The notes beneath the pieces are model-generated. The model searched no databases. It was not told the origin of the DNA and worked only from the letters and a program-made list of their open reading frames with translations. A program made the translations under genes and the position numbers. DNA of 31,250 nucleotides, taken from positions 1 to 31,250 of IMG/VR virus record IMGVR_UViG_3300033155_001112. The stretch is one strand, 5' to 3'. Below are positions 5,964 to 30,988 of this stretch, piece by piece. The stretch is from a virus. The number at the start of each line of letters is the position of its first letter. Position 1 is the first letter of the stretch.

Positions 5964-6326
5964 TTAAACTGGGTCAATGCCTTGCGGGGTAACTTTAAGT
6001 GTATAATGCTCCTCAATATTAAATGGAGGAGTTAATGTAGTATTAATCACCTCAATAACTTGAGTATATGGACGATAACTTTCACTATCATCAACCTCTA
6101 ATAGATTAGTTTCCGTTGGAGTTAGAGCAGCAATAAATCTTAAATTATCCACTGTCTTATCAGTCACTTCCCTTTTGGCAATTACAGCGACCCCATCTGA
6201 ATCATTAACGGCAGTAAAGCAACTCCAGTTGGCATCAAGGGTTACACCGTCATCCAGAACTGTAGGTCTTGGGCGGATAATTGGGCCAGTATCACCTTGG
6301 TAGATTGTATATTCTTCAACAGCCAT
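5964..6326 (-). CDS. Appendage-region protein with N-terminal baseplate-like fold, 120 aa
   Basis: Starts MAVEEYTIYQGDTGPIIRPR with AGGA upstream, overlapping the end of the giant repeat protein by 11 bases. 'YQGDTGPxI' followed by a variable linker and strand-rich region resembles the short beta-sandwich module found at the head of some phage receptor-binding or baseplate upper proteins. That match is by eye and weak. It ends NIEEHYTLKVTPQGIDPV. A role as an attachment or adaptor piece for the repeat protein is an inference from coupling alone. Confidence 0.5.
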   Translation of the reverse strand: MAVEEYTIYQGDTGPIIRPRPTVLDDGVTLDANWSCFTAVNDSDGVAVIAKREVTDKTVDNLRFIAALTPTETNLLEVDDSESYRPYTQVIEVINTTLTPPFNIEEHYTLKVTPQGIDPV

Positions 6327-9300
6327 CTTCTAGTCCTATAAGTTCAATAGTTGAGTCTATCATATAATTTTCAGGCAACATAGAAAGATCAAGCGTTTCT
6401 ATTTCAATATCTAAATCATAAGATTCATTATCGTAATTTATTCCATATGGGACACATAATAATGGTATTGCACCAGTATATAAAAGAACTATATCAGAAC
6501 CAGTTATATCAAATTCAACCGTCTCTGTTATTATGCTATGGTGATATGCAAGCCCTGCATCTGTGCCAGCAATTACAAAAGTGCCAGATTCTGCGCCTAT
6601 TGATCTACTATGTGCTAAATCTACATCTTGACCAAGTATTAAGAAAGATCCATTTTCTGCAATAATAGAATTTACAGTCTTTAATGTAACATCTTGACCA
6701 AGAATTGTATATTCGCCAGACTCGGCAGATATTGCATAACTTGTCTTAAATGATACGTCAGTTCCAGATATGTTGTATTCGCCAACAGCAGCAGATACAG
6801 AATATCCTTTTCCTAAATTAACAGGCTGTCCTGTAATATTAAATGATGCGCCATCTACAGATGCTACTTTATCTGATAAGAAGTCAACATCCGTACCAGT
6901 AATACTGAATGATCCATTATCAGCAAATAATACTGATTCAGCATTAAATGTTACATCAGTACCAGTTATTAAAAACTCACCATTAAGCGCAGATATTACA
7001 TAGCCTCTATCAAAGCTAACATCTGTGCCTGTAATATTAAATGATGTAGTAGTTGCAGATAAAGTGTAATTTATTAATAGACCAACAGATTGGCCATCAA
7101 TAGCAAAAGCGCCAGCAAGAACATTTGCTGTATAATCTATGCTAAAGTTAACATCCTGTCCAGATATATTAAATTGCCCATTCTCTATAGATATTGCATA
7201 TCCAACTGCCAAATCTACATCAAAACCAGTTAATATAAATGATCCATTTTCTGCTATTAGTGAATTTTCAGTAGAAAGATTAACATCTTGTCCATCTATG
7301 CTAAACGATCCAACTTCACTAATAAGAACATACTCTTTAGATAATACTATATCAGTACCATCTAAAGAAAATGCTCCATTATTTGCATCAAGAGTATAAT
7401 CAACTAATAAATTAGCATCAGTTCCGCTGATTGCATAGCTTTCAGAAATATTAGATAGAATATAATCTACTGAAAGATCTACATCAAATCCAGTTATTGT
7501 ATATGCACCAACTCCTGCTAATATTGATTTCTCGCTATCAAAATTAACATCCGTTCCAGTTATTAAATATGTGTCATAGTCTGGTATCAGTGCATAATCA
7601 CGATTAAACGTAACATCTGTTCCAGTTAATAAGTAAGAGCCAGAAAGTACATCTAGTGTATATTTTATAGAAAGGTTAGCATCAGCGCCATCTATTAAGA
7701 AAGCGCCATTCTCTGTAGCTAAAATATAATCTCTATCTAATTCTACATTTGCTCCAGTAATTATGAATGATTCTGTAGTAGGAATTAATACATATCCTTG
7801 CTGGAGATCTACATTAGTTCCATTTATGTCGAATGCGCCAATAATAACAGGCAAGTTATAATCTTGCTGTAGAGTAACATCCGTTCCAGCAATATTGAAT
7901 ACAGTCGTAATTGGAACTAATGAATATCCCTGCTGTAGAGTAGCATCTGTTCCAGTTATATTAAATGATGCAGATATTGAATTTAATGCATATCCCTGTT
8001 GTAAGTCTACATCCACAACTGTAATGTTAAACGTGCCAGATCCAGCAGATAATGATTTCTCACTATCGAAATTAACATCAAATCCAGTTATTACATATTC
8101 ACCAGCAATAGTTGATATTGCGTAATCACGACTAAATGCAACGTCCGTTCCATCAATATTAAATGTAGTTGTCGTTGGAACTAGCGAATATCCTTGCTGC
8201 AAATCTACATCAGTTCCATCTATATCAAATGTTCCAGCAAGAGCTTGTAAGACATATCCCTGTAGCAGATTAACATCAACTCCATTGATATTAAATGCTA
8301 TTGTTTCTGAAACTAGGGAGTATCCTTGCTGTAGAACAGCGTCCGTTCCAGCAATATCAAATTCTGCGACTGTAGTATTTAGCGAATATCCTTGTTTAAG
8401 GTCTACGTCAAAACCAGTTATATTGAATATGCCAGAGCCAGCGGATAGCGATTTTTCACTATCAAAGTTGACGTCATATCCTGTTATTACATATTCACCA
8501 ACGATAGTAGATACAGCATAATCGCGACTGAATGTAACATCCGTGCCAGATATATCAAAGGCTTCGGTTGATGTAGTTAAAGTATAGTCTTGAGAAAGAG
8601 TTACATCATTACCAGAAATATTAAAAACTTCAGTTAAGGCAACTAAGGAATATCCTTGGGAAAGTATAACACCAGTTCCATCTATATTGAAAGTTTCAGT
8701 TAAAGCAACTAATGAATATCCTTGTTGAAGTTCAACGTTATGCCCTGTAATATTAAATGCTTCAGTTATAGTTTGCAATACATGCGATACTGCTAAATCT
8801 ACATCAGTACCAACTATATTAAACGCGCCAACTAAAACTGGTAGATTATATCCTACTTGAAGATCAATAACAGTGCCATTGATATTAAATGCTTCTGTAA
8901 GGGCATCTAGTGCATAATGATTAACTTCACCCCCTTCTTTTGTTAATGTTACATCAGTGCCAGTAATATTGAATGCTTCGGTTAATACATGTAATGGCTT
9001 TCCATATATTAAATTAGTTGCCCCAGTGCCACCCCCACCAAGGGTTAGTGACCCTAATTTTGATGTACCTAGTTTTCCATCATCTCCAGCATCCTGATAT
9101 GTAAATGATCCAGCAAGCACATTTAACGTAAAATGCCTAGCTTGAATTAAATCTATATTAGTGCCAGTTATAGCGAATGATTCTGTTAAAGCATCAAGAG
9201 TGTGATGCCTAACAGCAGTTAAAGTAACATCAGTACCTGAAATAGCGAAAGATTCTGTAAGCGTATCAAGAGTATAATGAGTAACACTAGAAGTATAATC

Positions 9301-9780
9301 AACATCCCAAGCAACTGCGCCAACTTCAATAGTTGTTTCTTGTGCTGGTGGATGCACATCTGCATCACATTCCATTATCAGGCGAACATCAGTATCAGCG
9401 TCTTGGGATGAAAGAAGGCTGGCATCCCACGGCAGGGATATTACCTGCCCACCTGAAGTGGTAGCGGTGACATCACCGCCATCATCATATAAGGTCGCTC
9501 TTAATGTGGCACCTTCATACAAATAGAACCGAAGCCTGTCTGGATTTCTTGTGCCGTTTGTGGCACCTATTTGGACACGAAATTCTTGCAGGCCAGCGCC
9601 CGTGGTCAACGCACCGGCAGCATCCGGGAAGTCTACTTCCAGATAAGTATTCGCGTCCCCATCTGGCGCATTCAGCCAATTACTATCTGGGGCGGCTGGA
9701 TCATCCTGGATGTCTGAAACCAACCCAGACAAATTAGTCTGGGTGATTAGGACATCGGGGCTTAGTGTTTCAGCAGACAC
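6316..9780 (-). CDS. Giant tandem-repeat virion appendage protein, 1154 aa
   Basis: The largest complete gene in the window. It starts at a GTG (9780) with AAGG seven bases upstream, three bases after the previous stop. Residues 1-167 form a non-repeated Asp/Thr-rich beta domain (PDRLRFYLYEGATLRATLY), similar to N-terminal modules of other phage structural proteins. Residues 168-1102 are 41 copies of one unit, consensus 'Y-x-L-x(4)-x-x-F-x-I-x-G-T-D-V-x-L-x-x-G'. The first five copies vary in length, the third with a Gly-rich insert (LTLGGGGTGATNLIYG); the last 36 are exactly 22 residues each. Residues 1103-1154 are an acidic tail. Each unit suggests two short strands around a Gly turn, so a beta-solenoid or stacked shaft is likely. 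Probably a fibre or tail decoration; function not proven. Confidence 0.8.
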   Translation of the reverse strand: MSAETLSPDVLITQTNLSGLVSDIQDDPAAPDSNWLNAPDGDANTYLEVDFPDAAGALTTGAGLQEFRVQIGATNGTRNPDRLRFYLYEGATLRATLYDDGGDVTATTSGGQVISLPWDASLLSSQDADTDVRLIMECDADVHPPAQETTIEVGAVAWDVDYTSSVTHYTLDTLTESFAISGTDVTLTAVRHHTLDALTESFAITGTNIDLIQARHFTLNVLAGSFTYQDAGDDGKLGTSKLGSLTLGGGGTGATNLIYGKPLHVLTEAFNITGTDVTLTKEGGEVNHYALDALTEAFNINGTVIDLQVGYNLPVLVGAFNIVGTDVDLAVSHVLQTITEAFNITGHNVELQQGYSLVALTETFNIDGTGVILSQGYSLVALTEVFNISGNDVTLSQDYTLTTSTEAFDISGTDVTFSRDYAVSTIVGEYVITGYDVNFDSEKSLSAGSGIFNITGFDVDLKQGYSLNTTVAEFDIAGTDAVLQQGYSLVSETIAFNINGVDVNLLQGYVLQALAGTFDIDGTDVDLQQGYSLVPTTTTFNIDGTDVAFSRDYAISTIAGEYVITGFDVNFDSEKSLSAGSGTFNITVVDVDLQQGYALNSISASFNITGTDATLQQGYSLVPITTVFNIAGTDVTLQQDYNLPVIIGAFDINGTNVDLQQGYVLIPTTESFIITGANVELDRDYILATENGAFLIDGADANLSIKYTLDVLSGSYLLTGTDVTFNRDYALIPDYDTYLITGTDVNFDSEKSILAGVGAYTITGFDVDLSVDYILSNISESYAISGTDANLLVDYTLDANNGAFSLDGTDIVLSKEYVLISEVGSFSIDGQDVNLSTENSLIAENGSFILTGFDVDLAVGYAISIENGQFNISGQDVNFSIDYTANVLAGAFAIDGQSVGLLINYTLSATTTSFNITGTDVSFDRGYVISALNGEFLITGTDVTFNAESVLFADNGSFSITGTDVDFLSDKVASVDGASFNITGQPVNLGKGYSVSAAVGEYNISGTDVSFKTSYAISAESGEYTILGQDVTLKTVNSIIAENGSFLILGQDVDLAHSRSIGAESGTFVIAGTDAGLAYHHSIITETVEFDITGSDIVLLYTGAIPLLCVPYGINYDNESYDLDIEIETLDLSMLPENYMIDSTIELIGLEDGC
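6475..8850 (-). repeat. 36 uninterrupted 66-bp coding repeats
   Basis: The DNA that encodes residues 311-1102 of the giant protein is exactly 36 x 66 bases. The nucleotide copies have diverged, but the positions for F-x-I-x-G-T-D-V are kept. Two neighbouring blocks of six units (8191-8586 and 7795-8190) are much more alike than average, showing a 396-bp second-order duplication. A related three-unit block recurs near 7390-7620. Confidence 0.92.
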
Positions 9781-10055: not shown

Positions 10056-10496
10056 TTACTGGTTAGTTATAATTCTATCTGCAATCTCCTTAATTTCCAA
10101 ATACGCATCCTTAACTGCTGGGTCAAAATCTGTTGACGCTATTACTGCATCATCAAGAAGTTTGCTAACAAGTTGAACGAGCACTAATATTGTGTCCTTG
10201 CCATAATCTTGCAAAAGTTCTATGTCTGATGCAACTTGCTCTGCATCAAGCTGCTCCTGTGTCTTTGTAAGTTTGGTATAAACTCTTGTAGCAGAATTAG
10301 ATGCATAATCATATGAATCTACTGGCAAAGAAAGATATTCAGTTTCTGAATCGAATGCTGGAACGGTTTTTATAACTTCTACAAGAAATCCCTTTTCATT
10401 TAATAATGAAGATTCTTTTGTATTATATTCCTCAAATACTCCAGCAACTATTCCAATGATAGAATGTAAAATTGGATCTATTTTGAAATATAACAT
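10056..10496 (-). CDS. Unknown appendage-region protein, 146 aa
   Basis: Starts MLYFKIDPILHSIIGIVAG; its ATG overlaps the preceding stop (TAATG), implying coupled translation with the BspA-like gene. The N-terminal part is beta-like (VEVIKTVPAFDSETEYLSLP) and from about residue 78 the protein is helical (TKTQEQLDAEQVASDIELL), a layout often seen in fibre chaperones or fibre assembly proteins. No specific family motif recognised. Confidence 0.5.
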   Translation of the reverse strand: MLYFKIDPILHSIIGIVAGVFEEYNTKESSLLNEKGFLVEVIKTVPAFDSETEYLSLPVDSYDYASNSATRVYTKLTKTQEQLDAEQVASDIELLQDYGKDTILVLVQLVSKLLDDAVIASTDFDPAVKDAYLEIKEIADRIITNQ

Positions 10497-11461
10497 TACA
10501 AGGCCCCTCCGTCAGTTATATGCCAATTATATGTATCAGTTAATATAGCCCTAGCAGCTGACTCAGTATATTTAGCTTGACCGGCATCAAAATAAAGATC
10601 ATGTTGAAGTGATTGCTGCGACCAAGATAACAGTAACTTGTCATAATTAGCATTTGAAAATTGGCTATTTAAAAATAAATATTGAACATCAGTAGCTGAT
10701 TCTACATCCCATCCACTAACATCCGGATTAGCTGCTGCACCATTAAACATCCCACGAAAACTTGTTACTGCACCAGTATCCCAATTTTCTACTGCTGGGG
10801 AAAATTCTGCATTCTGAAACATGTATCTCATGTCTTCAACGGAACTAGTGTCCCAATTTTCGACTCCTGGATCATATAACTGTGGTATATTACTAAATAA
10901 AGATGACATGTCAACTACATTTCCAACTTGCCATCTGCTAACATCAAGATCTTCTGATCCGGTATGAGAAAACGCATAATAGACATCTGTTATATTCCTT
11001 AAATCCCAATCGGAAACATCAGGGTTTGCTAACTCAGCATTGTAAAAAAGAAACTTGAGATCTGTTAATCCATAAAGACGCAAAGCATCAGTTGCAGTTG
11101 TTTCCATGTCAGTACAGCCATAAAACGCTGCATAAAGACTTTCAAAGCCAACATCTCCCCATTGCATAATTTCTAGTATTGATGTTTTATCCCCAGCATC
11201 ATCGAAAGTGAATATGGTGCAAAGCCCATTTATTGTAACTATATACTCTCCAGCATCCTCATATGTATGACTTGCATTATTATCATTCCATGCATCTACT
11301 TTAAAATTCCCCGTGTCATCTCCATAATTCACTATAAAATCATAATCATTTCCATTTTCTAATGGCAAGGTTTTTGTTGATGATGGAAAGAGTGCTCTCC
11401 ATTTGGTGATAAACGCCCTTTTATTCTTTCTTCCATGATGCATTCTATTCATGCCAAACAT
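10496..11461 (-). CDS. PKD-like plus BspA/DUF285-type repeat surface protein, 321 aa
   Basis: Residues 1-30 are basic (MNRMHHGRKNKRAFITKWRA). Residues about 38-85 resemble a PKD-like domain, with FIVNYGDDTG and ASHTYEDAGEYIVTING. Residues about 120-270 hold five copies of a 20-to-24-residue unit with the pattern '[DE]-V-S-x-W-D-x-x-x-V-x-D-M-x-x-[ML]-F-x-x-[AN]' (for example VENWDTSSVEDMRYMF). This is the DUF285/BspA-like repeat of bacterial surface proteins, known for binding host or matrix molecules and also seen in phage fibres. Its start and end overlap the neighbours by one base (TAATG). A receptor-binding or adhesin function is the natural inference; the repeat family is clear. Confidence 0.75.
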   Translation of the reverse strand: MFGMNRMHHGRKNKRAFITKWRALFPSSTKTLPLENGNDYDFIVNYGDDTGNFKVDAWNDNNASHTYEDAGEYIVTINGLCTIFTFDDAGDKTSILEIMQWGDVGFESLYAAFYGCTDMETTATDALRLYGLTDLKFLFYNAELANPDVSDWDLRNITDVYYAFSHTGSEDLDVSRWQVGNVVDMSSLFSNIPQLYDPGVENWDTSSVEDMRYMFQNAEFSPAVENWDTGAVTSFRGMFNGAAANPDVSGWDVESATDVQYLFLNSQFSNANYDKLLLSWSQQSLQHDLYFDAGQAKYTESAARAILTDTYNWHITDGGAL

Positions 11462-16413: not shown

Positions 16414-17499
16414 TCAACCCCTCTGTGGATTGGCGAAAATCTTCTTTCTGTTAAAGCCACTTGGGAAAGAAGCGAAATAAAACCCCATTTCTTTATATGT
16501 TTTTCCAACATATTTACTAAAGCATGAAAACCAACCACCTGATTGCGAATATGAACTCATAGTAAATGTTTTATTATTATTCTTCAAGCAAGCATTTATG
16601 ATTCTAGTTGGCGTACAGCCCAAGGCACTCGCTGCATCCATACTAGAATAAAAACAACCTAATGGAGTTATATATATGCCTTTTGATTTTGCCAAAGATG
16701 CTTGGAATACATAATCGCTAGTTTGTTTTCTTTTACCTGTTAATTTTTCTGACATTCTTTTCATCCCGAGATTATTTTCTTTTGTCCTACCCCTCATCGC
16801 CTCAGAGTGTTTTCTAACTCGCTCACAGTTGTGCTTATTATCACCTTTTCTTTTTTCAGCTAGCCTTGCAATGGAGGCATCATTTTCTTTAGTTCTTCCT
16901 TTTAATGGACTAGCATTGCTCCATTTAACTCCTGCTGTAAGCCCACAGTGAATGTCTTTATCAAATTCGCCATTTTTTAAGCGCACTATTTCCTCTGTGC
17001 CCTTTATTCTGCAAATAATAATCCCAATTTTGCTTTTTGATATTCTTTCTTTAGTCTCCATAGAGCGAATTATTCCTTTGCTCATTCCACAATACATTCC
17101 TTTGCTAAACTCTTCCATTGTAATATAGCATGTTTTCCCTGTTATTCTGTGCTTGCAAGGAACCATCCCCTTTTTAGAAAGAGATGTTTTTAAATCTGAT
17201 GTAGGATTATTTTTTCTTTTTATTCCACCATACTGTATATTGTAACAGTTTGGATCATTAATTTCAGCATTGCCAATAAAGTTAGCCTCTGCTTGGTACA
17301 TTTCATTTCTTGAATCAAAAAATTGGATTATTTCTTTATTAAAATTATTAATCCCATATTTTTTAAATGCAGAATTAAGATATACTCCACTTCCCATATA
17401 TCCATCAAAAATATCATTAGTTGAATGAATGCCAATATAATATTTATTATCTATTACATTTGTAATTCTATATAAAATATGATATTTTTTACTATCCAT
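16414..17499 (-). CDS. GIY-YIG homing endonuclease, free-standing
   Basis: A site-specific nuclease that spreads its own gene. I start it at ATG 17499 (MDSKKYHILYRITNVIDNKY, GAGAC upstream), giving 361 residues; the frame stays open 33 codons further but those lie in a terminator hairpin. The nuclease domain spans about 1-95: YHILYRIT... for the GIY-like strand and YYIGIHST for YIG, followed by DGYMGSGVYL (family 'Y.GSG..L') and YQAEANFIG with the catalytic Glu. Residues 190-270 have two NUMOD3-like DNA-binding copies (LKGRTKENDASI, MRGRTKENNLGM). Near the end, GIYITPLGCFYSSMDAASAL is an intron-encoded nuclease repeat. It interrupts the head operon right after the capsid gene. Confidence 0.9.
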   Translation of the reverse strand: MDSKKYHILYRITNVIDNKYYIGIHSTNDIFDGYMGSGVYLNSAFKKYGINNFNKEIIQFFDSRNEMYQAEANFIGNAEINDPNCYNIQYGGIKRKNNPTSDLKTSLSKKGMVPCKHRITGKTCYITMEEFSKGMYCGMSKGIIRSMETKERISKSKIGIIICRIKGTEEIVRLKNGEFDKDIHCGLTAGVKWSNASPLKGRTKENDASIARLAEKRKGDNKHNCERVRKHSEAMRGRTKENNLGMKRMSEKLTGKRKQTSDYVFQASLAKSKGIYITPLGCFYSSMDAASALGCTPTRIINACLKNNNKTFTMSSYSQSGGWFSCFSKYVGKTYKEMGFYFASFPSGFNRKKIFANPQRG

Positions 17500-17530
17500 A
17501 ATATTGTCTCTGTAAACAATTTCTGTATTA

Positions 17531-17589
17531 AAAAAACATAGACAGGGCAGTACAGAAACTGCCTTTTCAACCGCTAAGTTTAGTCTATG
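17531..17589 (-). terminator. Terminator after the major capsid gene
   Basis: On the reverse strand an inner hairpin GGCAGT-TTCTGT-ACTGCC (17546-17563) lies inside an outer stem CATAGAC/GTCTATG (17583-17589 with 17537-17543), followed by seven T. It would end or attenuate the abundant capsid mRNA before the homing endonuclease gene. The outer stem has an uneven interior loop, so strength is uncertain. Confidence 0.6.
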
Positions 17590-17629
17590 CTTTATCATTA
17601 TAGAGATTCCTATTTACTCTCTATTTGCC

Positions 17630-21403: not shown

Positions 21404-21949
21404 TTATTGAACCACTGATAGCTGTTTAGGTTTTAGTTCGCGCACAGGCATAATATAATTAACTAAATAGCCAAGTGCATCCATCATATGATCCAAGCCA
21501 GTAGTCTTATCTGGCTGTCCATTAGGCAACCAAATTTGCTGCTCAAGACATTCAGTTGTTTCAGGACATCTTTCTGTATCAATAAATAATTTCTTTTTGT
21601 TGAATGCATTATTTACTGATGCAACTCTATCCTTGATATATGGGTTTCTGTTTCTTGCTCTTATAACAAACTTTGCTTTCCGCAGTAAAGCAATGTCAGT
21701 AATTCCAGCATCTGCTGATCCACGCTTAATTCCAGTTGAGTCAGGATACGCTATAATTTTGTTATGAGGAAAATCAGCCCTAACTGCATTAATTAATTCA
21801 GGAGTATCAAGAAGATTATGATATTCTTTAAATACATAGATTTTTCCATCAATTAAAACTGATGCCAACCCTGCCATATGCTCAACATTGAAATCAACCC
21901 CTAAGTGAATAACAAAGTTGTTTTGAGTAAGGTAGTCGAGTAAATCCAT
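21404..21949 (-). CDS. Terminase large subunit, nuclease part
   Basis: The C-terminal RNase H-like nuclease of the packaging motor as a separate 181-residue ORF starting MDLLDYLTQNNFVIHLGVDF. The first catalytic Asp is in H-L-G-V-D-F-N-V, the second in I-A-Y-P-D-S-T-G (about 68), and a late Asp in L-D-H-M-M-D-A-L-G-Y. This is the complete acidic set expected. It is in the same frame as the ATPase part and starts immediately after its TAA (TAAATG). Only weak Shine-Dalgarno sequence is visible, so it is made by reinitiation, by readthrough of the stop, or as a truly separate subunit. Confidence 0.88.
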   Translation of the reverse strand: MDLLDYLTQNNFVIHLGVDFNVEHMAGLASVLIDGKIYVFKEYHNLLDTPELINAVRADFPHNKIIAYPDSTGIKRGSADAGITDIALLRKAKFVIRARNRNPYIKDRVASVNNAFNKKKLFIDTERCPETTECLEQQIWLPNGQPDKTTGLDHMMDALGYLVNYIMPVRELKPKQLSVVQ

Positions 21950-22825
21950 TTAACCAATACTCGCAATTGATGCATCTGCATCCATGATAACAAAATCAGC
22001 ATCAAAATGATGCTCTGTGCGTCCAAAGCAGTGGTATACAGCTCCACCAGTCAAGTTAACAAAGTCTCCATTGAGATAGGCTTCAATGAGCTGAGGTGGA
22101 TAAGATGCTCTGAGATTGGCTATATATGATTTTTTAAGATAGGGATTTGACTCTGTGGAAGCCTTTACCATAGCATATCCAGGAAGATCTTGTTTTTTCC
22201 ACTGATGATAGGTAAATTGGAATCCTTCTGGAGTAGTGAATACACCACACTTGTTTATGCATTCCATTGAATCAGGATCATATTCTATATTTTCTTCAAG
22301 AGTAACAAGCTCTTCATCTACCATTATAATGGCATCTTTTAAAAGAATAGTTCCAAGAGAAGGTTGCTGACGATTACGCGCTATGATCTTGTTCCATGCT
22401 TCTTCCGCTCTGATCTTAGGCATTGTATCCAGCTCATCAATAAAGCTGGCAAATACTTCATAGGCAATGATCCTCGCTGGATTATCCATTGACCTGCAAA
22501 TAATCTTTCCATGCCCAGCAATATCAAAGATGTAGTCTGATTTATTAAATTTCCACTTTAGTCCAAAGTGATCCAATAGCTCACCAATGCGGGGGACATT
22601 GTTAAGTTTAAGCAGGTCATAGGTTGGAGAATATACAGCAATATTGCACCATGGCATCTTAGTAATAGTCATTACTGCAATGTAGTGCATAATCTCTGAC
22701 TTGCCAGAACCAAATCCAGCCACAAAAGCCAGCGCCCACTCTAAAGTATTGAACCACAAGTTCCAATATCTGCCTTGTGGTGGAGTGGTCTCCCACTTAT
22801 GAACATTAGCGGGGGCTTTACTCAT
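21950..22825 (-). CDS. Terminase large subunit, ATPase part
   Basis: The packaging motor ATPase as a 291-residue ORF starting MSKAPANVHKWETTPPQGRY. Walker A is A-G-F-G-S-G-K-S (about residues 36-43); Walker B with catalytic Glu is V-F-A-S-F-I-D-E-L-D (about 124-133). The coupling motif region is near AEAWNKIIARNRQQPSL and the end of the ATPase domain has LIEAYLNGDFVNLTGGAVYH. The ORF ends SIASIG-stop, right in the linker before the nuclease domain. It overlaps terS by 8 bases. A complete terminase would be about 470 residues, so the two pieces together are normal in length. Confidence 0.9.
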   Translation of the reverse strand: MSKAPANVHKWETTPPQGRYWNLWFNTLEWALAFVAGFGSGKSEIMHYIAVMTITKMPWCNIAVYSPTYDLLKLNNVPRIGELLDHFGLKWKFNKSDYIFDIAGHGKIICRSMDNPARIIAYEVFASFIDELDTMPKIRAEEAWNKIIARNRQQPSLGTILLKDAIIMVDEELVTLEENIEYDPDSMECINKCGVFTTPEGFQFTYHQWKKQDLPGYAMVKASTESNPYLKKSYIANLRASYPPQLIEAYLNGDFVNLTGGAVYHCFGRTEHHFDADFVIMDADASIASIG

Positions 22826-25794: not shown

Positions 25795-25971
25795 ATGAAA
25801 AAGATTTTTGCTGGTGCTGAGGATGCTCCTCAATATGTGAAAGATAAAGATGATACATATTGGGAATTGAAAAAGAATTCCATTGGAGACAGATTTTATT
25901 CTGTAATGGCTCCTTATTACCATACAGTTGGTTGGGTGATTGGTTATCCTAGTTTTGGGCCAAGAGGTTAA
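25795..25971 (+). CDS. Early small protein, 58 aa
   Basis: Starts MKKIFAGAEDAPQYVKDKDD at 25795 behind AGAGGTATAATGAA; a longer frame with start at 25741 lies inside the hairpin and lacks a site. It is aromatic (YWELKKNSIGDRFYSVMAPY, YHTVGWVIGYPSFGPRG) with acidic N-terminus. Probably a small folded beta protein; no family recognised. Confidence 0.65.
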   Translation: MKKIFAGAEDAPQYVKDKDDTYWELKKNSIGDRFYSVMAPYYHTVGWVIGYPSFGPRG

Positions 25972-25972
25972 A

Positions 25973-26266
25973 ATGAAAACCACTACTAAAGCACAATGTA
26001 CACACGCAGCCATCATCAGTAATGCGCTGTATGAGTGCATCGCTATTGACTCAAGCATGAGCTGTAATGATGCGCATGAAATCATTCATAAAGAGCTATC
26101 CAGCCTCAGGTGGGTAGATGACTTCATCGTAGAATTAACAGCCAACTTGATTCTTGAAAATGCTTATTTTGAATTTGAGTTCGGAAATGTATTCCAATTG
26201 CGCTGCCCTGAAATGGAAGACGCTGGTGGAATCATGGGCGAAATTATCAAATCATTCGAGAGGTAG
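25973..26266 (+). CDS. Early protein, 97 aa, paralogue of the 26721 gene
   Basis: Starts MKTTTKAQCTHAAIISNALY at 25973 with AGAGG before it. It shares the pattern 'I-x-N-A-[LM]-[YF]-E-C-[IL]-A-x-D-S' and a late 'Y-F-x-F-E' strand with the protein at 26721, so both come from one duplication. Acidic, helix then strand, with three Cys. No known family. It overlaps nothing, but starts one base after the previous stop. Confidence 0.68.
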   Translation: MKTTTKAQCTHAAIISNALYECIAIDSSMSCNDAHEIIHKELSSLRWVDDFIVELTANLILENAYFEFEFGNVFQLRCPEMEDAGGIMGEIIKSFER

Positions 26267-26720: not shown

Positions 26721-26996
26721 ATGGAAACAAAACTTGATCCCAACATGAGGATCTATGCTGATTGTATTCGGAACGCAATGTTTGAATGCTTAGCAAATGA
26801 CTCACCAAAGCTTCCTGTTGCTGATGCAGATACTATTGTAGAGCGCAATATGTATCACCTCTATGTTGACTCTGATGTAGATGTGGACAACAACCTTAAA
26901 ACTGATGCAATTGATATCTCTGATAATGGAGATTACTTTGTATTTGAGGCGGCAACTGAGCTCTTCACTTTAACCTCTGAATCACACTCTGTCTGA
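26721..26996 (+). CDS. Early acidic protein, 91 aa, paralogue of the 25973 gene
   Basis: Starts METKLDPNMRIYADCIRNAM behind GAGGTATTAAAAATG. It is very acidic, with DSDVDVDNNLKTDAIDISDN near the centre and a strand YFVFEAATELFTL. Compared with the 25973 protein it keeps N-A-[ML]-[FY]-E-C-[LI]-A-x-D-S and the late strand. High negative charge suggests DNA mimicry or binding to a basic host protein, but this is only inferred from charge. Confidence 0.7.
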   Translation: METKLDPNMRIYADCIRNAMFECLANDSPKLPVADADTIVERNMYHLYVDSDVDVDNNLKTDAIDISDNGDYFVFEAATELFTLTSESHSV

Positions 26997-28795: not shown

Positions 28796-28803
28796 TCAAA
28801 TCA

Positions 28804-28840
28804 GCCAGCGAGGGCATTCACTTCAGAATGCTCCGCTGGC
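28804..28840 (+). other. Long intergenic hairpin
   Basis: GCCAGCG pairs with CGCTGGC and, inside, GCATTC pairs with GAATGC, giving 13 bp with a small interior bulge. Its right arm contains CTCCGCTGG, a word shared with three other early intergenic sites. No T-run. Confidence 0.75.
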
Positions 28841-28859
28841 GCAATCAAAGTGAGGCGTT

Positions 28860-29078
28860 ATGATGAAAGGAAGAAGAAGGAACTTGGAATGGTATTGCTT
28901 AAATGTCCTGGTTCACTGGGACCCAACAATGCCAGTGATTGACGCGCATAGCGCAATCAAAGATTTTGTTGATGTCCAATCAGATGCAGTAATTGACCAA
29001 TATGATTGTCTTGAAGTAAAATACGCTGGCGATCATCTAACTTACATTTTAAACTCAGAGAAAGACAATGAGACTTAG
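28860..29078 (+). CDS. Early small protein, 72 aa
   Basis: Two ATGs in tandem (28860, 28863) follow GAGGCGTT; the second has the better spacing. The protein MKGRRRNLEWYCLNVLVHWD is basic at its start, then acidic with DAHSAIKDFVDVQSDAVIDQ. It overlaps the next gene by 11 bases. Family unknown. Confidence 0.6.
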   Translation: MMKGRRRNLEWYCLNVLVHWDPTMPVIDAHSAIKDFVDVQSDAVIDQYDCLEVKYAGDHLTYILNSEKDNET

Positions 29079-29340
29079 TACACAGACAACAATTGTAGTA
29101 GAATCAGATAATGGAAGGCAATCAAGGATTCCATACACTGTGCATCTGGAGTATATATACCAGATTATCGCATCAAGTGACCGGGAAATTCCAGTTCAGA
29201 AGATTCAACTTATCAAAATGGTTCGCCATCTTGGTGGCAGTCTTCCATTGTCAGAGTGCAAAGATCTGGTAGAAGATGCGCTGAGGCATCGTCCGTTGCC
29301 ACTGGCAGATTTCCTGAAGATGGAGCTGAATAGCCAATAG
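29068..29340 (+). CDS. L7/L12 C-terminal-domain-like early protein A, 90 aa
   Basis: Starts MRLSTQTTIVVESDNGRQSR. Residues 44-71 (KIQLIKMVRHLGGSLPLSEC then KDLVEDA) match the ribosomal L7/L12 C-terminal helix pair, whose pattern is 'K-x-x-x-I-K-x-V-R-x-x-x-G-x-x-L-x-E-A-K-x-L-V-E'. In L7/L12 this surface recruits translation GTPases such as EF-Tu and EF-G. The rest of the protein differs from bacterial L7/L12 (no N-terminal dimer domain). It overlaps the gene before by 11 bases and is paralogous to the gene at 29629. An L12-mimic is a good hypothesis; an unrelated fold with chance similarity is less likely because the second copy matches even better. Confidence 0.72.
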   Translation: MRLSTQTTIVVESDNGRQSRIPYTVHLEYIYQIIASSDREIPVQKIQLIKMVRHLGGSLPLSECKDLVEDALRHRPLPLADFLKMELNSQ

Positions 29341-29351
29341 CAACCATCAAG

Positions 29352-29383
29352 CCAGCGGGGAGACTGATTCAATCCTCCGCTGG
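29352..29383 (+). other. Intergenic hairpin of the early gene module
   Basis: CCAGCGGGG pairs with CCTCCGCTGG across a 13-base loop. The right arm carries the CTCCGCTGG word, followed by TGCAAATTCAACTGAAGAGG and the next start. Confidence 0.75.
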
Positions 29384-29411
29384 TGCAAATTCAACTGAAG
29401 AGGTAAATGAG

Positions 29412-29639
29412 ATGAGTAAAATATTAGAGCCAATGGGCTTAATAGTAACACCAGAAAGCTGGGAAGAAGTAGATAGTTGGATTGGATTGCATAATCCAGA
29501 AGATCGAGCATATCTGTATACTGCTGCATTTATGGGTTGGAACTATGCAGCCAAGTTGGCTAATGAAAACCATGAAGGGCCAGCGGGTGATATTGAAAAG
29601 GCAATGGCTTATATCCTGGAGAGTGAAGATGAAAGTTGA
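29412..29639 (+). CDS. Early acidic protein, 75 aa
   Basis: Starts MSKILEPMGLIVTPESWEEV with GAGGTAAATGAG upstream. Acidic and helical, with DSWIGLHNPEDRAYLYTAAF and MGWNYAAKLANENHEGPAGD. No family recognised. Its end overlaps the L7/L12-like gene B by 11 bases, so the two are translationally coupled, as are genes 28860 and 29068. This repeats the same two-gene arrangement. Confidence 0.65.
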   Translation: MSKILEPMGLIVTPESWEEVDSWIGLHNPEDRAYLYTAAFMGWNYAAKLANENHEGPAGDIEKAMAYILESEDES

Positions 29640-29892
29640 AAAGGTAAGCAAGACTGTACTCCACCTGACTGATGCACATGGCAGGCAGATGGGCATTGAG
29701 GGAAGTGAGATGGTAATTGAAGCCTGGAAACTGATCCATAGTTATAAAATGTTGTATGGAGATGAGCAAGTGGTTCGTCATGTCAAGATGGTAAGGTCAA
29801 TTACTGGAATTGGCCTCAAAGAGGCGAAGTATCTGGTTGAAGATGCATACCACAATAACCTGACGGATGTATTTGATCTCTACGGATCATAA
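29629..29892 (+). CDS. L7/L12 C-terminal-domain-like early protein B, 87 aa
   Basis: ATG at 29629 with GGAG seven bases upstream gives MKVEKVSKTVLHLTDAHGRQ. Residues about 45-71 (DEQVVRHVKMVRSITGIGLK then EAKYLVEDA) closely match the L7/L12 C-terminal domain of bacteria ('K-A-V-R-x-x-T-G-L-G-L-K-E-A-K-D-L-V-E'): R, T, G, G-L-K-E-A-K and L-V-E all align. Paralogue A at 29068 shares D-x-x-G-R-Q and the motif. The 40 residues before the motif do not resemble the L7/L12 N-terminus or hinge. Likely interacts with translation GTPases; this is inference from the motif. Confidence 0.8.
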   Translation: MKVEKVSKTVLHLTDAHGRQMGIEGSEMVIEAWKLIHSYKMLYGDEQVVRHVKMVRSITGIGLKEAKYLVEDAYHNNLTDVFDLYGS

Positions 29893-29899
29893 TTACTGC

Positions 29900-29919
29900 G
29901 CCTCCCTGAGCTGGGAGGC
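29900..29919 (+). other. Intergenic hairpin of the early gene module
   Basis: GCCTCCC-TGAGCT-GGGAGGC is a perfect 7-bp stem, followed by ATAACCAAAGAGGCATTACA and the next ATG. Confidence 0.7.
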
Positions 29920-29940: not shown

Positions 29941-30120
29941 ATGACTGATTTTGAATATGAAAGCTTGATTGAGGCCACCGCTATACTTGGCGCCATCGAG
30001 GATCTTGGCCTTGGCTTTACGCATTATAAACAAGGCTTAATTGTTGTTGATTGCAGTTTGCAAAGCCAAGTCACCTATATTAATGATGCAGTTGAAAAAA
30101 GGATGAACAACAATGAATGA
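29941..30120 (+). CDS. Early small protein, 59 aa, paralogue of the 30311 gene
   Basis: ATG at 29941 with GAGGCATTACAA before it gives MTDFEYESLIEATAILGAIE. The stretch AILGAIEDLGLGFTH is nearly identical to AILGAIEDMGLDFTH in the protein at 30311, so both genes are tandem duplicates. The end (VEKRMNNNE) overlaps the next gene by 8 bases. Family unknown. Confidence 0.68.
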   Translation: MTDFEYESLIEATAILGAIEDLGLGFTHYKQGLIVVDCSLQSQVTYINDAVEKRMNNNE

Positions 30121-30310: not shown

Positions 30311-30508
30311 ATGACTGAGTTTAGATATCATAATGACAGAGGCGCCATTGCCATTCTTGGTGCAATTGAAGACATGGGGCTTGACTTCACCCATGAGCCT
30401 GATGTGATGGAGTATGGATCCATCTGGGTAGATATGGAACTTGAAAGTGAGTTTGATTATATTTGGGCAGCTTTCTGTAAATCCCAATTACCAAGGCCAC
30501 TTGATTAA
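30311..30508 (+). CDS. Early small acidic protein, 65 aa, paralogue of the 29941 gene
   Basis: Starts MTEFRYHNDRGAIAILGAIE directly after the previous stop (GAGG eight bases before). It carries AILGAIEDMGLDFTH, then an acidic beta end (EYGSIWVDMELESEFDYIWA). Homologous to the 29941 protein over the first 30 residues, diverged after. Confidence 0.68.
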   Translation: MTEFRYHNDRGAIAILGAIEDMGLDFTHEPDVMEYGSIWVDMELESEFDYIWAAFCKSQLPRPLD

Positions 30509-30799: not shown

Positions 30800-30988
30800 G
30801 TTTCAATTCTCCGCTGGCAAGGATCCACCCCATCTTTTTTGTTGTTTTTATTTGTTTTGTTTACAAAACACTGTTAAAATGCCCATCTCCTTATATAGAT
30901 TGTGGCCAATTTGAGACACAGAATTGATTTGGGCCTACACAAAACTGTTTCTGGCTTCACAAAATCATTTTGCAAGGCTGCATTAATA

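Follow-up and report, generated by a model that had tools for sequence, protein, structure and literature searches.

Two small genes of a virus record of 31,250 bases raise the question of which part of the ribosomal protein L7/L12 (bL12) is carried by their products, proteins A and B, and what this part would do in a phage protein. The whole record, which is the stretch of DNA analysed here, is referred to as the window. An initial annotation had assigned to both proteins an L7/L12 C-terminal domain (CTD) that might serve as a decoy or adaptor for translation factors, an interpretation that is partly supported by the analyses described below.

Genetic context of A and B

The minus strand of the window holds siphovirus structural genes, including those for terminase, portal, major head protein, tail and tape-measure proteins, and the nearest relative of the major head protein is found in Serratia phage Eta (56% identity). 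The plus strand carries, from about 25.9 to 30.8 kb, small genes without assigned function, A and B among them. The label "early" that had been given to both proteins comes from this position only, that is, from their being small genes on the strand opposite to the structural ones. The features around A and B are as follows:

28804..28840, plus strand: strong RNA hairpin ahead of the A unit (fold of 28800-28862: -28.8 kcal/mol, z -5.1; repeat family D6)
28860..29078, plus strand: 72-aa ORF without assigned function, its 3' end (stop codon) sharing 11 nt with the 5' end of A
29068..29340, plus strand: protein A, ATG start, 90 aa
29351-29384, plus strand: RNA hairpin ahead of the B unit, resembling that ahead of A (fold of 29341-29414: -21.3 kcal/mol, z -2.1)
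29412..29639, plus strand: 75-aa ORF without assigned function between A and B and unrelated to them, its 3' end (stop codon) sharing 11 nt with the 5' end of B
29629..29892, plus strand: protein B, ATG at 29629, 87 aa

The overlap between the 72-aa ORF and A makes translational coupling of the two likely. This ORF gave no match in a Pfam search, and its comparison with the ORF that precedes B showed no similarity. A duplication of the whole unit, formed by the upstream ORF and the L12-like ORF, was rejected because the upstream ORFs differ and paralogy appears restricted to A and B. These two are probable paralogues, and the initial description of A as a diverged copy of B holds: their local alignment has a z of 7.1 and a score that was reached by 1 of 5000 shuffles, with the helix pair described below contributing most of it, while the N-terminal halves are weakly alike (global p about 0.02) and have in common a GRQxxI motif and a predicted hairpin-helix. 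Two other pairs of paralogous small genes, the neighbours at 29941-30120 and 30311-30508 (local z 22) and those at 25970-26266 and 26721-26996 (local z 8.2), indicate that gene duplication is common in this region.

GC-rich RNA hairpins (28804-28840, 29351-29384 and 29900-29919) separate the small genes; the arm sequence CCGCTGG is common to the first two, and a third, partial copy lies at 30805-30822. On the minus strand, separate ORFs joined by TAAATG encode the ATPase and the nuclease of the terminase large subunit (21404-21949 and 21950-22825). PHROGs lists a family for each half, and the nuclease ORF is matched at 100% identity along its length by a second contig (L007). The major head protein gene is immediately followed, on the same strand, by that of a GIY-YIG homing endonuclease (16414-17598). 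This strand also encodes a DUF285 repeat protein amid the tail-side genes (10496-11461, E 9e-32) and a 1154-aa protein (6316-9780), most of which is made up by dozens of copies of a repeat of about 20 residues (..F.I.GTDV.L..) and for which Pfam returned weak and doubtful matches only.

A and B carry the helix pair of the L7/L12 CTD

The L7/L12-like string that had been read in B (VKMVRSITGIGLKEAKYLVEDA) is exact, and the protein matches the Pfam model of the L7/L12 CTD (PF00542) over residues 48-73 with an E-value of 1e-6 and 29.4 bits, above the curated cut-off of 25.9 bits. The match of A (residues 41-71, E 1.1e-4, 22.9 bits) falls slightly below this cut-off, yet A is supported by the shuffles and by the search of the whole 31-kb record, in which PF00542 gave exactly two matches:

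29188..29280, plus strand: L12 helix 4-5 segment of A (E 4.6e-6, profile positions 8-37 of 67)
29770..29847, plus strand: L12 helix 4-5 segment of B (E 6.2e-8, profile positions 12-37 of 67)

The NCBIfam model of L7/L12 (TIGR00855) likewise recognises B (E 2.2e-6) and A (E 6.1e-3). When aligned with the CTD of E. coli L12, B and A reach shuffle z values of 11.2 and 8.8, respectively, and none of 3000 shuffles attains either score. A profile built from A and B and run with hmmsearch against all PDB sequences gave 17 matches at E<=1 (best E 1.1e-6), all of them bL12 or mitochondrial bL12. At the residue level, B keeps the equivalents of K70, R73, K81, E82 and K84, with Val in place of K65, and A keeps those of K65, K70, R73, E82 and K84, with Ser in place of K81 and one extra residue inserted in the TGxG turn. 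The V68 position is occupied by Leu in A and by His in B. The homology of both proteins to the L7/L12 helix pair is thus real and confirmed.

The matched segment is restricted to helices 4 and 5. The full CTD fold (beta-alpha4-alpha5-beta-alpha6-beta) is not present, as the PF00542 match stops at position 37 of 67, and TIGR00855 covers only positions 68-97 of 125, with scores of 28.1 for B and 17.0 for A against a cut-off of 84.4. Both proteins are devoid of the dimerisation and uL10-binding N-terminal domain, of the hinge, and of the beta2-alpha6-beta3 part of the CTD. Since the uL10-binding domain is missing, A and B cannot join the stalk, and they cannot be ribosomal bL12.

Predicted structure

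AlphaFold2 models, built from a two-sequence alignment and of moderate confidence (pLDDT 75.7 and pTM 0.67 for A; pLDDT 76.7, about 91 across the helix pair, and pTM 0.69 for B), show a beta-beta-alpha-alpha-alpha arrangement, in which a beta-hairpin and a helix precede the helix pair, and not the fold of the L12 CTD. In A, the predicted hairpin (3-12, 18-22) is followed by a helix at 25-35, the L12-like pair at 42-56 and 61-73, and a C-terminal strand at 83-89; in B, by a helix at 27-43, the pair at 48-59 and 63-75, and a disordered tail (hairpin 10-14, 20-24). Foldseek returned nothing significant for either model against the PDB, or for that of B against BFVD, where the best match was a bL12-CTD-containing protein of a Streptomyces phage (E 0.16, probability 0.92, not significant). 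As regards a helix-turn-helix DNA-binding fold, homeodomains are among the weak top matches of B (E 0.1-0.4, likewise not significant).

The initial annotation had named an unlike fold or a missing profile match as grounds for abandoning its view; the profile match exists, whereas the predicted fold differs. Its "L7/L12 CTD domain" is therefore retained for helices 4 and 5, which have profile support, but not for the overall fold, and the correct wording is helix pair of the L7/L12 CTD.

The helix pair in other phages

Outside the helix pair, A and B stand apart. Searches by tblastn with either protein against phage, plasmid and IMG/VR records gave no close relative, the A and B alignment used as query retrieved only other L12-like helix pairs, and no relative of the N-terminal halves was found in 84,980 bacterial and archaeal genomes or in IMG/VR. 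The records of phages with a related terminase or capsid, among them Serratia phage Eta and Shewanella phage 3/49, gave no PF00542 match, so the two genes are not a hallmark of the lineage. A DNA pattern for the unusual G-x-LPL-xx-CK turn of A had no match in IMG/VR; an L12-like pair with the RxxxGxLPLxxCK turn of A occurs in a 181-aa protein of Vibrio phage vB_VcorM_GR11A (L164:415-957).

The helix pair itself is common. A DNA pattern for TGxGL[KR]EAK matched 114 stretches of IMG/VR, and these, together with the loci from the alignment search, correspond to 103 distinct ORFs, a handful of which (e.g., L091, L097 and L112) are chance matches. Some of the 103 are full-length bL12, many combine unrelated N-termini with a tail of CTD length (34-38 residues), and 22 are short-tail forms that stop no more than 28 residues past the motif, a few of them cut by the contig end. 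Examples of the latter, with unrelated N-termini, are L137, L074, L081, L090, L116 and L119. Lys or Arg occupies the positions of K70 and R73 in every case, both short-tail (21/21) and CTD-length (36/36), and these positions lay outside the search requirement, which demanded only the later TGxGL[KR]EAK part. A consensus of the helix pair, 28 residues long, matches 166 records of GenBank phages at E<=1. The statement of the initial annotation that other phages carry the full bL12 is wrong, given the dozens of non-bL12 architectures in the IMG/VR scan and the survey of Mizuno et al. 2019 (PMC6375957), according to which the bL12 domains of phages lie more frequently inside other polypeptides and are variably placed in larger proteins; an example is a 126-aa protein of Sulfitobacter phage phiCB2047-B with 25% coverage.

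Phage bL12 segments are therefore already known, and what is unusual in A and B is their N-terminus and the nearby paralogue. Like the proteins of Mizuno et al. 2019 (PMC6375957), they are phage-encoded PF00542 matches within non-bL12 proteins, but they come as two close paralogous copies with a beta-hairpin/helix N-terminus found nowhere else. With bacterial bL12 (rplL; 1ctf, 1dd3, 1rqu) they have in common CTD helices 4 and 5 with the factor-contact residues, in contrast to the parts listed above as absent. They resemble the short-tail IMG/VR proteins in ending soon after helix 5, although V68 is replaced by Ala in 16 of 21 of those, compared with 5 of 36 CTD-length forms (Fisher p 6e-6, uncorrected for kinship). 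Because this Ala is absent from A and B, and B scores equally against the short-tail and the CTD-length groups, A and B may be an independent truncation.

A further architecture, a "peptide chain release factor 1" of Otagovirus phages (VCM, phiPsa374, PHB09 and others), has the helix pair C-terminal to another domain, as in A and B, but the other domain is here a partial RF-1 domain:

L153:2231-2707 (Pseudomonas phage VCM; also L154 and L160-L163): Otagovirus fusion protein

Its RF-1 domain is matched with E-values of 3e-13 and 4e-14 and its helix pair with 9e-7 and 3e-7. GGM replaces the catalytic GGQ in all six proteins examined, which makes the release-factor domain look inactive. Most of the fusion protein is held by 38 phage records, and a literature search found no paper describing it. 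It constitutes a second, independent attachment of the helix pair to a ribosome-acting part, and no proof for A and B.

A putative docking function

Ribosomal bL12 binds IF2, EF-Tu, EF-G and RF3 through a conserved site of positive charge, which lies on helices 4 and 5 (PMC6753160). The part kept in A and B is exactly this binding site, so a decoy or adaptor role is a reasonable inference. The most parsimonious reading, with about an even chance of being right, is that A and B, two small paralogues, use bL12 helices 4 and 5 to dock on translational GTPases as a decoy or tether. In each of them, a beta-hairpin and a helix without a recognised source would lead into the helix pair of the bL12 CTD. 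The helix pair would dock, in the fashion of the stalk, on the G domain of IF2, EF-Tu, EF-G and RF3, while the proteins themselves, without the uL10-binding N-terminal domain, would stay off the stalk. As decoys, A and B would compete with the host stalk for translation factors; as tethers or adaptors, they would link a factor to whatever partner the hairpin-helix part binds. The latter version is favoured, on the premise that single CTD-factor contacts are weak in general.

Several observations argue for docking: the L12 profile support is specific and repeated, the charged contact positions K70, R73, K81, E82 and K84 are preserved in B, the helix pair recurs on unrelated phage proteins with constant Lys or Arg at K70 and R73, and the Otagovirus pair, fused to a GGQ-type release-factor domain, provides an independent link to translation. 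Additionally, a bL12-domain protein of a Salmonella phage was found in E. coli ribosome fractions (PMC6375957). Against docking stand the loss of K81 and of the normal TGxG turn in A, the lack of any homologue outside the helix pair in the collections searched, and the unsuccessful purification of ribosomes bearing tagged phage bL12 (Mizuno et al. 2019, PMC6375957). Moreover, the helix-pair surface may serve otherwise, as the predicted fold is not that of the L12 CTD and Foldseek gave no significant match.

Alternative explanations

The main rival, a serious possibility that nonetheless falls short of an even chance, is that the bL12-derived pair has been reused as a scaffold within a small phage protein of three helices that serves a different purpose, nucleic-acid or protein binding, translation factors not being its targets. 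The predicted hairpin and three helices unlike the L12 CTD, the homeodomains among the weak matches of B, the partial loss of the contact surface in A and the many small gene duplicates without assigned function in the region are in line with it. It fits less well with B, which conserves the charged factor-binding positions beyond the core residues, and with those other phages whose release-factor domain is joined to the same pair; the homeodomain matches are, besides, not significant. That A and B substitute functionally for host bL12 in the stalk is very improbable: the presence of a phage bL12-domain protein in ribosome fractions (PMC6375957) would agree with it, but it is contradicted by the anatomy of A and B, from which the N-terminal domain, hinge and beta2-alpha6-beta3 are all absent, and by TIGR00855 scores of 28 and 17 against 84.

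As to the origin of the pair, it was also compared with the N-terminal, UBA-like helix pair of EF-Ts (VKELRERTGAGMMDCKKAL), which likewise contacts EF-Tu. The resemblance is weak (z 3.7 for B and 1.8 for A), far below the L12 values of 11.2 and 8.8; none of the PDB profile matches is EF-Ts, and NCBIfam and Pfam return L12 instead. This origin was rejected and is given hardly any credence. Chance likeness of a short helical segment is the least probable explanation of all: the match does span only some 26-30 residues and A lies under the curated cut-off, but two nearby genes match the same model, with whole-record E-values of 6e-8 and 5e-6, and among 18 other phage records searched a match appeared only in the two chosen for the motif.

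Implications

If the helix pair of A and B binds translation factors, these proteins of 87-90 aa would be near-minimal docking modules, and the redirection of host translation by a phage without replacement of a ribosomal protein would become directly testable. In a broader and more doubtful view, which we regard as rather unlikely, the helix 4-5 pair freed from bL12 would be a widespread phage GTPase-docking module that has been attached repeatedly to different effectors, a hairpin-helix here and a dead release-factor domain in Otagovirus, and would define a class of translation-takeover adaptors that is unrecognised so far and separate from the ribosomal proteins of viruses. Such a recurring module may have escaped notice, since annotation reads either "bL12" or nothing and PHROGs lists the matching families as "unknown function" only.
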